The notes under the pieces are model-generated. The model ran no database searches and was not told the origin of the DNA. It saw nothing but the letters and a program-made list of their open reading frames with translations. This document shows positions 43,661 through 50,841 of a DNA stretch of 64,000 bases, in pieces (the first letter of the stretch is position 1; every line of letters begins with the position of its first letter). The stretch is from Methanolobus sp. WCC4. GTDB taxonomy: Archaea; Halobacteriota; Methanosarcinia; Methanosarcinales; Methanosarcinaceae. The DNA lies in assembly GCF_038022665.1 (NCBI RefSeq), contig NZ_CP150629.1, positions 310,001 through 374,000 of the forward strand. Direction: 5' to 3'. Made by a program: the position numbers and the translations under genes.

Positions 43661-44542
43661 TCAGAAAGCGAAAGTCTGTCTGTTCAGATAATATTTAGCT
43701 CCGCGTGATGACCTTGTCTTCTTTTTCGCAGGAGAGTTCTTGTTTTTATTTTTAGCAGCATTCCCCTTACTTCCATTACTACCGGCTTTCTTCCTGCTCT
43801 GTATGTCGAACCTGACCTTCTTGATGGCAAGGTCCAGTGCAAGTCCCCTGAGCATCCAGCTCAGTGCCTGTGCCTGATGATGTTTGTGGCGGTCCTTTTT
43901 ACCGGGGAATGCATCAACGACCATCCTCGTGGCTTTCTCACCTGCCATCTCCTGTAACTCGAATAAGGTCCTGTCCGAGAGTATGTCCTTTGATGAGATG
44001 TGAAGACGCTTATACATGGCATTGCCAGGGAATGGGGTTGAGTTCATGGAAGCGATAATCTTCCTCAGTTTCCCTGTTGCAGGAGAATTTCTGACATCTA
44101 TGAGGAACTCCCGGTCGTTGGGATAAAGGATACGCACTTTCTGCTTTGACTTAGAGAGATGGTCAGCCTGCTTGTTCTGCATCCGCGGGACCCACCGGAA
44201 GTGTATGTCAAGCTCATACTCCCTGATGATGTTGGTAATCTCACGATGGATGTTCCAGATATCATCACCCGCGATAGGATATAGGCCGCGCATCTGGTAG
44301 ATGACGGTCTGACTGTCCCCCATTACTGAAAGAGGACCCTGACCGTCGGCTTTGACGTATTCAAGTATACCTTTCTTGAGGGCAAGGTATTCTGCAAAAA
44401 GAGCGTTATTACTGGTGTCTTTCTCAAGGCGGTCGTTTCCGAGTATTGAAAATGAGTTGTTCTGCAAGGTCACAACCCAACCCAATCCCATGCATCCACC
44501 CGGATTCGGAGTGCATGAGCCGTCGAAGGTTATTGCATCCAT
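43661..44542 (-). CDS. RNase HI-fold protein with basic C-terminal extension
   Basis: A 293-residue protein. The N-terminal 130 residues are an RNase H fold: ITFDGSCTPNPGGCMGLGWVV (first catalytic Asp), EYLALKKGILEY (Glu), VMGDSQTVIYQM (Asp), and RMQNKQADHLSK (last Asp). All four DEDD carboxylates are present. A second region (residues 150-240) is helical with a His/Lys-rich patch (GKKDRHKHHQAQALSWMLRG), and the tail is highly basic (KAGSNGSKGNAAKNKNKNS). The extension probably binds RNA or DNA. The start at MDAITFDG is preferred. Confidence 0.82.
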   Translation of the reverse strand: MDAITFDGSCTPNPGGCMGLGWVVTLQNNSFSILGNDRLEKDTSNNALFAEYLALKKGILEYVKADGQGPLSVMGDSQTVIYQMRGLYPIAGDDIWNIHREITNIIREYELDIHFRWVPRMQNKQADHLSKSKQKVRILYPNDREFLIDVRNSPATGKLRKIIASMNSTPFPGNAMYKRLHISSKDILSDRTLFELQEMAGEKATRMVVDAFPGKKDRHKHHQAQALSWMLRGLALDLAIKKVRFDIQSRKKAGSNGSKGNAAKNKNKNSPAKKKTRSSRGAKYYLNRQTFAF

Positions 44543-44751
44543 GTTTCTCGTACTGGTTAGAATGTATCTTAAGCCGTACACAGGAACTTTCCCTTGCACA
44601 ATAATATTGCCTTAGAAATATATAACAATGTAGTATAGGATATATTGATGGGTATATAGATTCAATAGAACATTAGGGCTGACGGGACGGGAGACTATCG
44701 AAAAGCCTTATGAATCACTATTGAACATAATAATTGATTGGAGATATCAAG

Positions 44752-45027
44752 ATGTACACAGTCTATATCAGAGCACTGGATGGTTCCTACATAAATGTTG
44801 ACAAGATAATTCAGATATATGCTGCTGATTTTGAGGGCGAGGAATTCATAATGGCAATGTCCACATATGAGACAGCCGACCCCATAGCAGAATGTACGAA
44901 CAACCCCGATCCGGACCAGTTGATCTCAAGCACACTTTCCGCAATAGCCAATGCGAAGATCGAGTCCAATACCATAGGAGAGGCTGTGATAGTCGATCTC
45001 GCAGAAATGGGACAGAACGTTTTTTAA
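44752..45027 (+). CDS. Hypothetical small protein
   Basis: A 91-residue soluble protein starting MYTVYIRALDGSYINVDKIIQIYA, with GGAGATATCAAG before the ATG. An alpha/beta pattern with a conserved-looking acidic run (ECTNNPDPDQL). It is not recognised. It is convergent with the first HEPN-like gene. Confidence 0.6.
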   Translation: MYTVYIRALDGSYINVDKIIQIYAADFEGEEFIMAMSTYETADPIAECTNNPDPDQLISSTLSAIANAKIESNTIGEAVIVDLAEMGQNVF

Positions 45028-45076: not shown

Positions 45077-45886
45077 CTAACAGAACATCAAAAAGACCAG
45101 TTCCCGCGTCTGGTCGATCAGTTCCCTTACATCATCTACCAGAGACTGCTCAGTCTCGTCAGCACTGGCACACCTGTCTCTTAAAGCCACAAGTTGCTCT
45201 AGTGTCACAAGCAGTTCCTGGTCGAACCCTTTAGCCTCATCGGATTCACGAAGTCTCTGAACTATTGCAGCCATGGTCTCTTCTGGCTCCGGTTCAACCC
45301 CATTCACCTCACACAGCATCTTCAGGTAGCTTTCGAGAGCCTCATCAGCAACAGTAGCCGCAGAACTAACATACCCCTGCTGATACAGGCTTTCTGCTTC
45401 ATCAAGCTCGGAATTTATCAGATCTGCTGCAAGCATCCTTTCATTGTTGTTCCTTGCCGAAACGACAGGAGGCTCTATTGAGTGAAGCATGCTCACCATT
45501 GGATCGAAACTGGCCCTGAACTCCTTTCTCAGTTCGCTCTTGTCATTGGAATTGCTTACAGGATCCTTCAGGCCTATGAGAGAGATAATCGTTTTATTAA
45601 GCCCTGCAAATTCCTCGCATTTTGAGTTACCAGCCCTTCCTGCATATTCCTTAAAAAGACCCAGGCAGCCTTCATACCATTCCCCGTACCTCTGGAGAAG
45701 AACACTTTGCAGAGGCTCGTTCTTTGAATTAATCACACATATGTGATATTCGACATTCTGCAATCCCGTGGAACCGTCATCCACACGCTTCATCCTCTTT
45801 TGTGTGGTGCCTTTCAGCAGGTCAATATACATCCTTTCGATAAGTTCGGCCTCTTTGATGTATGCGGTTATGTCGGGGTGATCCAT
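45077..45886 (-). CDS. HEPN-like protein, degenerate catalytic motif
   Basis: A 269-residue helical protein from ATG 45886 (MDHPDITAYIKEAELIERMY). It shares the whole layout of the gene at 48537: N-terminal IERMYIDLLKGT, central LQSVLLQRYGEWYEG, and the C-terminal HEPN-like domain with INSELDEAESLYQQGYVS ... LESYLKMLCEVNG and LVALRDRCASADETE ... VRELIDQTRELVFLMF. Where the paralogue has R-N-K-C-A-H, this has R236-D-R-C-A-S241, so the catalytic His of the Rx4H RNase motif is lost. It may be an inactive partner, inhibitor or structural subunit. HEPN assignment is by motif and helix pattern. Confidence 0.6.
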   Translation of the reverse strand: MDHPDITAYIKEAELIERMYIDLLKGTTQKRMKRVDDGSTGLQNVEYHICVINSKNEPLQSVLLQRYGEWYEGCLGLFKEYAGRAGNSKCEEFAGLNKTIISLIGLKDPVSNSNDKSELRKEFRASFDPMVSMLHSIEPPVVSARNNNERMLAADLINSELDEAESLYQQGYVSSAATVADEALESYLKMLCEVNGVEPEPEETMAAIVQRLRESDEAKGFDQELLVTLEQLVALRDRCASADETEQSLVDDVRELIDQTRELVFLMFC

Positions 45887-45954
45887 AATAATAGGATGGG
45901 GTATTTTGTATTTAAAAAGGATTGGAAAGAAGTGTGAAGTTGGCATATTAACGT

Positions 45955-46812
45955 TCAGTTGTCAGAAATTACCGAAAGAAATAGAGGAACAAATATCCCA
46001 AAAAAGTAACCTGTATAGTGACCTACGGAATTGATAATAGCACCGTCCCGTACAATCTCCGGAGGGACCAGAACAGGCAGAATGAATATGTAATCCAGAG
46101 TTACAAAGAGCAATCCCAGAAAGTACAATTGCTTTAAATTTGGGAAACATCTCCACCAATTCCTGACATCTGAATTCTGCTTGATGACCTCTACGATGAC
46201 ATCCTTTTGCATGTATACCAATATCAATGCAAATGTGATCATGAATATGTACGGGAGTATCTGGAAGGTAAGATTCCCGAGGACCAGTAAAAGGTTCATG
46301 ACAACTATCAGGGAAAGGAATGTGAGGTCAATGTCCTTGAATGAGTATTCCTTAAGGAATCTATAGACCACATATATCAGATATCCATACAGAGAACTGA
46401 CAAGTCCTGAAAAACCCTGATATGTTGTGTTAAGACCGATCATGTTCAATGATACAATTGATATCACCCAGGGCAAGAACAGAAACATGAGTGACGAGTA
46501 CACATAGAATCTACGTTTGTTTGTTTCAAAATTGAAGATCAAAAAACAAAGTGCAAGATAAGAAAACAAGTTCCCGGAAAAGTGTTGCAAATCACTATGT
46601 ACATAATTTGAGAGAAAGAGCGAATACAGTGTTATCCTTGAAGGATACATGATGAAATATGCTTCTTTAAGGCTGACCGGAAGATAAAAGATGAATATAA
46701 GTAATGCCGGAACCAGTACGAAATAGAACAGCCAGTCACTTTTTTTCCAATTTACAGCAAATAGATATGCTGAGTAAAAAGAGGCAAAGTGGCATTTAAT
46801 ACGTAATGACAT
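45955..46812 (-). CDS. Rhomboid-family intramembrane serine protease
   Basis: A 285-residue membrane protein with seven or so helices. Rhomboid hallmarks are in the right order: HFSGN (H77, N81) in the second helix, GFSG with nucleophile Ser135, and GHYTGYFFG with catalytic His265 in the last helix. The enzyme cleaves transmembrane substrates within the bilayer. It lies between the two HEPN-like genes and divergent from a secreted protein. Base use is AT-rich. No Shine-Dalgarno site precedes the ATG. The catalytic dyad identification is by motif and awaits structure. Confidence 0.8.
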   Translation of the reverse strand: MSLRIKCHFASFYSAYLFAVNWKKSDWLFYFVLVPALLIFIFYLPVSLKEAYFIMYPSRITLYSLFLSNYVHSDLQHFSGNLFSYLALCFLIFNFETNKRRFYVYSSLMFLFLPWVISIVSLNMIGLNTTYQGFSGLVSSLYGYLIYVVYRFLKEYSFKDIDLTFLSLIVVMNLLLVLGNLTFQILPYIFMITFALILVYMQKDVIVEVIKQNSDVRNWWRCFPNLKQLYFLGLLFVTLDYIFILPVLVPPEIVRDGAIINSVGHYTGYFFGIFVPLFLSVISDN

Positions 46813-46928
46813 TTAAAATGTATTTTAAGTTTAGTGTAAATATGCTTTTGGGTTGGTCGGTTACAAAACAAACTTCCACCAATGAGAATATAATTCAATA
46901 GACACAATAATATTGGGGGAGGTCCGGC

Positions 46929-46979
46929 ATGTTTTACAAAGAGTATCAACTCTGCAGTTCAATAATAGCATCTAGCTGA
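46929..46979 (+). CDS. Possible 16-residue leader peptide
   Basis: A very strong GGGGGAGGT site precedes ATG 46929, opening MFYKEYQLCSSIIASS and TGA. It lies 61 bases before the secreted-protein start (47041). It may be a translated leader or attenuator element. Only the ribosome site supports it. Confidence 0.3.
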   Translation: MFYKEYQLCSSIIASS

Positions 46980-47040
46980 GCTATTACATATTTTGCGGAT
47001 TCTGCCCATGATATTAAGATCAACAGGGAGAGGGTTGAAT

Positions 47041-47973
47041 ATGAAAGTTAAGATCACAAAAGCAGCCTTAGTGCTTGCTGCAATAATACTGATAAGCATT
47101 GTTTTTGTACCAACAGCGGCCGCCACTCCAGAGGACTCTCTGGAGAAATGGACGAAAGACCATACTGTGAAGAATGTCAAATTGACGACGACCTACAAAT
47201 ATGAAGATGGGTACCTGGAAATAAAGGAGACCTATTCCGGTAGTGAGCTGAAGAAGAAGACAGGACTCAGCAAATTCAATAAAGAGAAGAAGATCCCTCT
47301 GGAAATCGGAACTGTCATGGTGAACAAAGAGGGAGATGAACTGACCGTTACAGAGAACGAGCTCATCCTGAAAACCAAAAAAGACGGGACCATCAAGCTG
47401 GAGAAAGGAAAAGAAAATGTGTATACGACCAAAATATCACTGGTAATGACACTTGAAAGTGATCCATACCCATGGTGGATCAAGTTTGACTATCCTCAAT
47501 GGACGTGGTCAATGTCCAGCGGCTGGTATGTAAGGGAAGACCCAATCAATATGGTGTGGGAAGAGCCAGATATAGGTGAAGTGAAATATGTGGTCGTGAA
47601 TTATGAAAAGTGGACTGACAATCCATCTGAGTACACGCATTATGTCTTTGATTACCTGGATAATCGTTGGGAAGTAGGAGATGGCGTGGCTGAAAGTGTA
47701 CTTAGGATCACCGGTGGATACCATGCACGTTTGTGGACTATTTCCACTGATGAAGAGGAGGTTGTGATTGCAAATGCTCATAAAGATGATAGTGTCTTCA
47801 ATTGGCCACTAGGACATCAGGCTATTGAGTATGAAGGTGCGGAAGATGAAGTTGCTGGCATTTATTCTGATGCAGGATGGAATGTCGATTATGATGCATA
47901 TTTCCTTAAAAACAGGTACTTGAACGAATATGATGCATTTAACAACGGGAAAGCCACTGTGATTACTCCATAA
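47041..47973 (+). CDS. Secreted hypothetical protein
   Basis: A 310-residue exported protein. The signal peptide is KAALVLAAIILISIVFVPTAAA. The mature part is beta-rich and polar, with Trp-rich blocks (DPYPWWIKFDYPQWTWSMSSGWY) and a C-terminal region with GGYHARLWTIS ... ANAHKD ... NWPLGHQAIEYEGAEDEVAG. His and acidic residues in the last part could form a metal site, but no family is recognised. The upstream ATG at 46993 would put 16 residues before the signal peptide, so 47041 is chosen. Possible rhomboid substrate only by location. Confidence 0.65.
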   Translation: MKVKITKAALVLAAIILISIVFVPTAAATPEDSLEKWTKDHTVKNVKLTTTYKYEDGYLEIKETYSGSELKKKTGLSKFNKEKKIPLEIGTVMVNKEGDELTVTENELILKTKKDGTIKLEKGKENVYTTKISLVMTLESDPYPWWIKFDYPQWTWSMSSGWYVREDPINMVWEEPDIGEVKYVVVNYEKWTDNPSEYTHYVFDYLDNRWEVGDGVAESVLRITGGYHARLWTISTDEEEVVIANAHKDDSVFNWPLGHQAIEYEGAEDEVAGIYSDAGWNVDYDAYFLKNRYLNEYDAFNNGKATVITP

Positions 47974-48013
47974 TGAGGTGGACCACCCACCTTTCTTATT
48001 TTTTGGAAGAAAT

Positions 48014-48469
48014 ATGGACAAAAACAGATCCATTGTCTCAGCAGCAATTGTAGTCTTACTTCCATTATTGCCTGCATTGATAGACGTAGGATACAAGCTG
48101 TACTCGCCGATAATGGAAGATGTGATATTGCACATCCTGATGACCACCGTTATATTTGGTGTCCCGGCAGCATTCATAATCTATTATGGATACACTACAG
48201 GAGATGAGATCACTTCCACATTGTCAGGTGTCTTTTTGGTTCCCCTTTACAGCCTTTATTCAGATATCCTTCTGGAACTGCTCGACCCACATTTCATAAT
48301 ATCAGGTGCAGGTTACTGGTTGCGGATCACGACCTTTATTGATCTTGCGATCCCTGCTGTAATTTGTGGAGCAATGGGGTATTTTGCTTCAAGGAGGACG
48401 AGAAAATCTCTTTTGGTTTCGGTTTTTTTAGGGATGGTGTTTATCCTTATGTTCAGTCTAATCGATTAA
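48014..48469 (+). CDS. Membrane protein, unrecognised
   Basis: A 151-residue protein with four to five predicted helices (IVSAAIVVLLPLLPALIDVGY; ILMTTVIFGVPAAFIIYYGY; LSGVFLVPLYSLYSDILLELL; FIDLAIPAVICGAMGYF; LLVSVFLGMVFILMF). GGAAGAAAT precedes the ATG at 48014. It begins 40 bases after the secreted protein gene and is probably co-transcribed with it. Function unknown. Confidence 0.65.
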   Translation: MDKNRSIVSAAIVVLLPLLPALIDVGYKLYSPIMEDVILHILMTTVIFGVPAAFIIYYGYTTGDEITSTLSGVFLVPLYSLYSDILLELLDPHFIISGAGYWLRITTFIDLAIPAVICGAMGYFASRRTRKSLLVSVFLGMVFILMFSLID

Positions 48470-48536
48470 GGATTTAGAGTAACATCTATGTAGCAATATC
48501 GTGCAAGTCATAATAGTAGGAGAGGGAGACTTGTAT

Positions 48537-49328
48537 TTAAGAAAATGCCATGAAAGTTATTTTCTTTGTTTTGTCAATTAGCTCCCTTACTTCTTGCTTT
48601 TTAGGCTCTTCCCCAGGATGAGCGCATTTATTTCTCAGAGAACCAAGATGTTCTATTGATTTAAGCATAACTAAGTCAAAACCAGGTACTTTTTCAGATG
48701 TACGGAGTTTTTGAGCTAGGGGGTATAGCGTGTCTTTTGAATCAAGTTCTATTTCGTTTAATTCGCACAAAGTTTTCAAGTATCTTTCAAGAACAATTCC
48801 GGCAATGATACCTGCAGGTCGGATAAACTCTTTTTCATACAACAACTCTGCCCCATCAAGCTCAGAACTCAATAAATCTGCAGAAATAACTCTCTTGTAG
48901 TTGTTTTCATTCAAAGCAATAATTGGTTTTATTGTATGTAAGATATTCAGTTGGATATCAAAATATTTTATAAAGTTATTTTCCAACTGAATTTTTCTAG
49001 GAGACGATGTACCAGTCACTCTTAAATCAATCAAAGACAGTATTTCTAAGTACTGATTTACAAATTCTTCATACTTATCTGTCTCTTGAAAATCTACATA
49101 TTCTCGAACAATTCTCCTGCAAACTTCATACCATACTTCATATTTTCTTAGTATATTGCGCTGAAGTGGCTTCCTTGCTTTATTAATTTTGCAGAAATCA
49201 ATCTCAACAATCTGATTGTACTGATTTCTTCTTTTTTCTGCTTTAGCAGTGCCATTTAGCAAATCACCATATAGTTTTTCAATTTCTTCAGCTTCATTGA
49301 TATAATAATCTATATTCAAATTTTGCAT
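48537..49328 (-). CDS. HEPN-like protein with intact Rx4H motif
   Basis: A 263-residue paralogue of the gene at 45077. It has the same N-terminal IEKLYGDLLNGT and LQRNILRKYEVWYEV blocks and the same HEPN-like C-terminal domain, with LLSSELDGAELLYEKEF and LERYLKTLCELNE. The motif R232-N-K-C-A-H237 with Asn after Arg is the HEPN ribonuclease pattern. HEPN proteins cleave RNA in toxin-antitoxin, CRISPR and phage defence settings. No antitoxin-like (MNT) gene is adjacent. The gene is distinctly AT-rich and sits 113 bases from the 3' end of tRNA-Arg. Confidence 0.65.
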   Translation of the reverse strand: MQNLNIDYYINEAEEIEKLYGDLLNGTAKAEKRRNQYNQIVEIDFCKINKARKPLQRNILRKYEVWYEVCRRIVREYVDFQETDKYEEFVNQYLEILSLIDLRVTGTSSPRKIQLENNFIKYFDIQLNILHTIKPIIALNENNYKRVISADLLSSELDGAELLYEKEFIRPAGIIAGIVLERYLKTLCELNEIELDSKDTLYPLAQKLRTSEKVPGFDLVMLKSIEHLGSLRNKCAHPGEEPKKQEVRELIDKTKKITFMAFS

Positions 49329-49656: not shown

Positions 49657-50841
49657 ATGTCGATGACAATAGGACTTGCAGGGAAACCCAATGCAGGGAA
49701 ATCCACATTCTTTAAGGCTGCAACACTGGCAGACGTTGAGATAGCCAATTATCCTTTCACAACCATTCACGCGAACAAGGGAGTGACCTACGTAAAGGCG
49801 GAATGCCCATGTGTCAGCCGTGACAAACGCTGTGGCAACTGTTCCGACGGCATACGTTACGTTCCGATCGAACTCATAGACGTTGCAGGTCTGGTACCGG
49901 ATGCCCACCAGGGGCGCGGACTTGGTAACACCTTCCTTGACGACCTCCGTCAGGCACAGGCCATCATCCACGTGATCGACGCCTCAGGTGCAACAGACAT
50001 CGAAGGTAATCCTGTTGACATTGGAGAGCATGACCCTCTCGGAGACATAGATTTCCTCAACCATGAGCTCACCATGTGGATCCACAGTATAATCATGAGG
50101 AACTGGGTCAAACTATCACGCAAGATACAGGCAGAAGGACTCTCCATCGAGCACACACTTGCTGACCAGCTAATGGGAGCAGGGGTTAACGAGCAACACA
50201 TCATTGAAGCACTCAACCAGTGCAAACTGGACAGGAACCACCTCACCACATGGAGCGAAGAGGATATAATCCATTTCTGTGATGCAGTCCGCGCCTTAAG
50301 CAAACCTATGATAATCGCCGCCAACAAGATGGACGTAGCACCACCTGAGAACGTAAGCAACCTTCAGGAACTGGAGCAGATAGTAGTACCCACAAGTGCA
50401 GCAGCAGAACTTGCACTGCGTTCCGCATCCAAGGGAAATGCCATCAAATACGAGCCAGGGGATGAAGATTTCACCATCACCTCAGAGGAGCTCAGCCCCG
50501 CCCAGAAGAAAGGGCTTGAGAACGTACGCGCCCTCATACAGAAGACCAACGGTACAGGAATACAGGAATGCATCAACAGCGCTGTGTTCAAGCTCCTGGA
50601 CCTCATAATAGTCTATCCGGTAGAGGATGAAGGCAAGTGGACCGACAAGAATGACCGCATGCTCCCTGATGCATTCCTCATGAAAAGAGGTTCCAACGCA
50701 CATGACCTCGCCTACAAGGTACACTCAGATATCGGTGAGAGATTCCTCTACGCAGTGGACGCGAAAACGAAGATGCGCCTCGGTGAGAAACATGAACTTG
50801 CCGATGGTGACGTAGTGAAGATCGTATCCACCGCAAAATAA
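49657..50841 (+). CDS. YchF/OBG-family GTP-binding protein
   Basis: A 394-residue TRAFAC-class P-loop protein. G1 is GLAGKPNAGKST (6-17), G2/G3 region IANYPFTTI and LIDVAGLVPDAHQGRG with G3 DxxG, and G4 AANKMD. An archaeal insert CPCVSRDKRCGNCSDG carries four Cys that could bind zinc. A coiled-coil arm and C-terminal TGS domain (SDIGERFLYAVDAKTKMRLGEKHELADGDVVKIVS) complete it. YchF proteins interact with ribosomes. The length and TGS end fit the archaeal branch. Starts near a TATA-like stretch with no strong Shine-Dalgarno. Confidence 0.92.
   Translation: MSMTIGLAGKPNAGKSTFFKAATLADVEIANYPFTTIHANKGVTYVKAECPCVSRDKRCGNCSDGIRYVPIELIDVAGLVPDAHQGRGLGNTFLDDLRQAQAIIHVIDASGATDIEGNPVDIGEHDPLGDIDFLNHELTMWIHSIIMRNWVKLSRKIQAEGLSIEHTLADQLMGAGVNEQHIIEALNQCKLDRNHLTTWSEEDIIHFCDAVRALSKPMIIAANKMDVAPPENVSNLQELEQIVVPTSAAAELALRSASKGNAIKYEPGDEDFTITSEELSPAQKKGLENVRALIQKTNGTGIQECINSAVFKLLDLIIVYPVEDEGKWTDKNDRMLPDAFLMKRGSNAHDLAYKVHSDIGERFLYAVDAKTKMRLGEKHELADGDVVKIVSTAK

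Follow-up and report, generated by a model that had tools for sequence, protein, structure and literature searches.

Ribonucleases of the HEPN superfamily (PF05168 HEPN, PF13643 DUF4145 and PF18735 RiboL-PSP-HEPN; PMC3710099) are close described relatives of two proteins, here named P1 and P2, that are encoded in a 64,000-nt stretch of the Methanolobus sp. WCC4 genome, referred to below as the window. The likeness lies in a C-terminal helical bundle and, for P2, in an Rx4H motif with an Asn after the Arg; it extends to solitary genes, some of them near restriction-modification genes, and to AT-richness and patchy occurrence. Unlike these ribonucleases, P1 and P2 have an N-terminal helix-hairpin-helix half of their own (about 150 aa) and score under the Pfam cut-offs, and in P1 the motif is lost. 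The survey of the superfamily proposes that HEPN domains devoid of the polar residues, such as those of Swt1 and of nematode expansions, are non-catalytic nucleic-acid binders (PMC3710099). P1 resembles these in having a HEPN fold lacking the catalytic residues, but it is encoded by an archaeal gene that stands alone and is retained in most of a single genus, and its conservation has moved to another part of the protein.

Two defence-related systems and one protease family also invite comparison. The HEPN/MNT (HepT/MntA) toxin-antitoxin system (PMC7641770) likewise contains a HEPN RNase candidate; however, no nucleotidyltransferase gene adjoins P1 or P2, and no Pfam match to an MNT nucleotidyltransferase was obtained in the ten neighbouring ORFs scanned. 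AbiV (PDB 9bj6), the HEPN RNase of a two-component anti-phage system, is a weak fold match to P2, but P2 has no AbiV match in PADLOC and no identified partner. When the PADLOC-DB profiles of known anti-phage systems were searched, neither protein was assigned to such a system: P1 gave weak CARF-HEPN/Csx1 matches (0.0065 and 0.027) and P2 gave none. The gene lying between P1 and P2 shares HxxxxHxxxN, GxSG and GHxxG with rhomboid proteases (PF01694) and rhombosortase (TIGR03902), although it falls under both curated cut-offs (16.2 versus 22.6 bits and 24.7 versus 84 bits, respectively). A rhomboid of the sorting type would cleave a membrane helix at the C-terminus of its substrate, and the secreted protein encoded nearby lacks such a helix. 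Our literature search found no paper relevantly linking HEPN and rhomboid genes in archaea and none linking Methanolobus and HEPN, which does not prove their absence.

The features of the locus, in window coordinates, are as follows.

43661..44599, minus strand: RNase H-like (RVT_3) gene, our control neighbour; in many genomes it bounds the variable interval on the left
45077..45886, minus strand: P1, HEPN-fold pseudoenzyme, the native genus-conserved copy; motif R-D-R-C-A-S; stop codon TAG
45955..46812, minus strand: rhomboid-type intramembrane protease, canonical by its motifs; HxxxxHxxxN (72), GFSG (133, Ser135), GHYTG (264, His265)
47041..47973, plus strand: secreted protein with a sequence-predicted N-terminal signal peptide; first gene of a two-gene unit; the ORF can be read from TTG 46993
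47978..48469, plus strand: small hydrophobic, probable membrane protein; second gene of that unit
48537..49328, minus strand: P2, HEPN protein with intact R232-N-K-C-A-H237; AT-rich (GC 0.32, GC3 0.27); sporadic
49657..50841, plus strand: YGR210-like GTPase, a conserved gene that bounds the variable interval on the right

These ORFs agree with the initial annotation except at one point. The P1 ORF is open up to 45946, but its true start is probably 45886, since the P1 orthologues begin M..PDI, which makes the protein 20 aa shorter. The TAG stop of P1 (window 45077-45079) is found in 6 of the 19 P1 orthologues (also L042-L046), and the extensions behind it are not conserved. Methanolobus belongs to a pyrrolysine-using group, in which TAG can encode pyrrolysine. 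Such a reading of the P1 TAG was considered and rejected, the extension in the window being four codons long and unconserved. A 97-aa protein (MYTVYIRALDGSYINVDKIIQIYA...) encoded at window 44734-45027 on the plus strand is conserved near P1 in G002, G004, G010 and G017 and has no Pfam match.

P1 and P2 are homologous from end to end, with 38% identity over 268 aa (BLASTP, 184 bits, 7e-62), which bears out the earlier remark that the two end genes share sequence in both their N-terminal and C-terminal parts. Both fall slightly under the Pfam HEPN cut-off of 22 bits (P1 19.5, P2 17.1), and one P1 orthologue exceeds it (PF05168, 26.0 bits). AlphaFold2 models were built from a 19-sequence alignment for P1 and a 23-sequence alignment for P2, with mean pLDDT of 86 and 88, respectively. 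Both start with an N-terminal helix and a beta-hairpin, followed by two further helices, one very long helix and the C-terminal helices. The results of Foldseek against the PDB showed that solved HEPN domains were the top or near-top matches of both models (probability 0.97-1.00), and the predicted structures thus point to the four-helix HEPN bundle that the initial annotation had expected. For the P1 model the probability was 1.00 to 2hsb, 1o3u and 1wol, and for the P2 model 0.98-1.00 to 1wol, 1o3u, 1ufb, 2q00 and 3o10; the leading match was 2hsb for P1 and 1wol for P2, and 1o3u ranked third for both (probability 0.99-1.00). The TM score was about 0.6 over the HEPN target. The E-values were modest, all above 0.01 (best 0.014), because only the C-terminal half matches. 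We regard the vinculin and alpha-catenin matches as generic long-helix matches of the models. A phmmer search of P2 against PDB sequences returned COP9 matches only, which were judged to be due to chance.

The two proteins differ at the active site, in agreement with the earlier description of one intact and one degenerate copy. All P2-type copies keep R232-N-K-C-A-H237, that is, the Rx4-6H motif with a polar Asn after the Arg. P1 reads R256-D-R-C-A-S (289-aa numbering) and lacks the motif, so on its sequence it is a HEPN-fold protein that we do not class as a HEPN RNase. Among the 19 P1 orthologues a complete Rx4H occurs once, and in that sequence the Asn is replaced. The His column holds 10 residue types and lies at the 99th percentile of variability, the Arg column six (90th percentile) and the Asn column seven (84th percentile); the Cys amid them is invariant. 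Since the P1 of G022 retains both R and H, the loss of activity may have been incomplete at the base of the P1 clade.

The selection data indicate that P1 is nevertheless maintained. Its frame is open at full length in 19 of 19 genomes, and dN/dS is 0.13-0.37 among the 25 closest pairs. Mean pairwise identity is highest in residues 1-60 (0.74) and lowest in the HEPN half (0.50); the most conserved part is the N-terminal helix and beta-hairpin. P2 has the reverse profile, with identity of 0.86 in the HEPN half, 0.53 in residues 1-60 and 55% over the N-terminal half (three full sequences only). P1 and P2 belong to a known superfamily, and the contrast between a pseudoenzyme and a site-intact relative is real and well supported.

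The occurrence of the genes was compared in 27 Methanolobus genomes, this one included. A search with the P1 alignment found orthologous loci in Methanolobus records only. P1 is present in 19 of the 27 genomes, in the same neighbourhood next to the YGR210-like GTPase gene, and its copies match the GC of their loci. P2 is present in four: here, in G005 and G023 at the same place (the G023 copy being frameshifted), and in G008 at a different site adjoining a tyrosine integrase gene. The GC of P2 is 32% in a 45% GC window, and its GC3 (0.27) is the lowest of the 39 window ORFs longer than 200 aa (mean 0.48, sd 0.06). A GC of 0.29-0.33 in loci of 0.37-0.46 characterises all P2-type copies, among them the more distant ones of G036 and G004. 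Low GC by itself is no proof of transfer; P2 was probably acquired horizontally, and probably not long ago. With its motif preserved, it is probably an active HEPN RNase of the toxin or defence type. A contig profile scan with P2 alone as query and a viral contig scan with the P2 alignment gave no match. The phage and plasmid protein searches yielded only distant HEPN/DUF4145 proteins at coverage below 80%, and so brought to light no virus or plasmid with P2 itself.

The interval between the RNase H-like and GTPase genes has other contents elsewhere. Five genomes have Fic genes there, G007 an IS66-type transposase (identified by eye from the sequence) and G016 a Type II restriction-modification-like set. 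The G016 interval (L032:2088-7494) encodes a HATPase protein, a weak receiver-domain match, an HNH nuclease and an Eco57I-type methylase, and resembles a restriction cassette.

In the tree, P1 forms a single clade (support 100/99) with a long stem (0.39), and P2 is its sister (88/69); jointly they are separated from other archaeal relatives with support of 100/100. When 295 genomes of the phylum were searched with a profile, 35 contained relatives, patchily distributed and mostly with R-N-x-C-x-H. This wider archaeal family has no constant neighbour gene, and a few members lie near restriction-modification genes. In a second archaeal genus, g29, the Arg and/or Asn is lost and the His kept (GERCSH, VKKCCH, REKCDH; L111, L112, L113, L116, L145 and L146), so the site has eroded more than once in the family.

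The initial annotation proposed that the five genes from P1 to P2 could form a regulated RNase or signalling module. The genome comparison speaks against such a unit: P1 and P2 occur together in just 3 of the 27 genomes, one of them with the frameshifted P2, and the composition of P2 is foreign. The secreted and membrane genes do exist and are conserved elsewhere, as a pair in G002 at this site and in G023 at another, whereas G036 has just a distant copy of the secreted gene; they are a separate two-gene unit that travels alone. What did hold is the co-occurrence of rhomboid and P1: a close rhomboid is found in 13 of the 19 genomes with P1, always near it, and in none of the 8 genomes without P1. 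This association, the intact active-site motifs, which are conserved in relatives, and a 4-bp overlap of the P2 and rhomboid ORFs in G005, which could mean co-transcription, favour the view that an RNase is controlled through membrane proteolysis, by which the HEPN pair (or the secreted protein) would be released or regulated. However, the RNase H-like gene, which is unrelated and has no proposed role, accompanies P1 about equally (12 of 19 loci), so that the link of rhomboid and P1 is what inheritance of the locus would produce. Moreover, in seven genomes 450-530 bp separate rhomboid and P1, and in several a small ORF runs antisense in this gap; the rhomboid frame is broken in G015, where P1 is intact; P2 and the secreted/membrane pair are mostly missing; and neither HEPN protein has an obvious membrane segment. 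We therefore consider control by the rhomboid decidedly unlikely.

Three further explanations concern the HEPN genes themselves. A view of P1 as a former toxin now decaying as a pseudogene would fit its freely drifting catalytic residues and its evolving faster than the neighbouring genes, but the open frames, the dN/dS values and the conserved N-terminal block already contradict this reading as far as the sequences tell, and its probability is very small. A local tandem duplication that diverged in situ into an active and an inactive copy might be expected from two neighbours on the same strand that share a joint clade; it is improbable, in that P2 stands outside the P1 clade though found in only four species, differs greatly from P1 in composition and occupies a different place in G008, and in that P1 and the rhomboid occur without P2 in G017, a close relative. 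Active sites of HEPN RNases are generally at the dimer interface. P1 could thus be a dominant-negative partner whose heterodimers with P2-type RNases block the composite site, a chromosomal antidote against incoming HEPN toxins; the two proteins may be similar enough to pair, P1 keeps the HEPN helices, and it persists where the toxin is missing, as would be expected of an antidote. Yet the HEPN half, the would-be interface, is the least conserved part of P1, and 16 of the 19 P1 genomes have no close P2, which leaves this role unlikely. Very doubtful in turn is its evolutionary extension, in which the genus turned a toxin-like HEPN RNase to its own use as an inert protein, one that would form mixed dimers with active relatives on their arrival and so neutralise them, with P2 as an example caught in the act.

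Two side observations concern the rhomboid gene in other Methanolobus. The rhomboid of G022 (L033:7300-7600) has an in-frame TAG where relatives have Trp; read-through is possible there because of the use of pyrrolysine in this group. The antisense ORF of the rhomboid-P1 gap encodes a conserved 86-aa protein with a CCTPCRYxCIS motif (L029:9629-9889, L044:9132-9392, L045:8196-8456; also L040, L043 and L046) and does not occur in the window.

The explanation that we favour, with moderate confidence, is that a HEPN pseudoenzyme, which most of the genus has fixed, and a mobile, probably active HEPN RNase meet in a variable interval. P1 would be a relative of HEPN ribonucleases whose active site was lost early, in an ancestor of Methanolobus, and which has been retained since then without catalytic function. 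The helical bundle of P1 probably still serves as a scaffold or dimer, while its task may be carried out by the N-terminal helix and beta-hairpin (QKRMKRxDDGSTGLQNVEYxICVINSKN), most likely by putative binding of RNA or a partner protein. P2 would be a separate member of the same archaeal family, probably gained by horizontal transfer, with R-N-x-C-A-H preserved and a probable role as an RNase of the toxin or defence type. We propose that the two stand side by side because P2 landed in the variable interval beside P1; the rhomboid would be a neighbour by inheritance, and the secreted/membrane pair would have been inserted independently.

The locus offers a clean natural case in which a toxin-fold protein loses its active site while the remainder is still under selection, and the same locus provides a mobile relative with an intact site for comparison. 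Because constraint is reversed between the halves, it is apparent which part of P1 merits testing. The locus also carries a warning: where an active and an inactive copy share a locus, the pair can be the product of an insertion into a variable interval and not a functional module.
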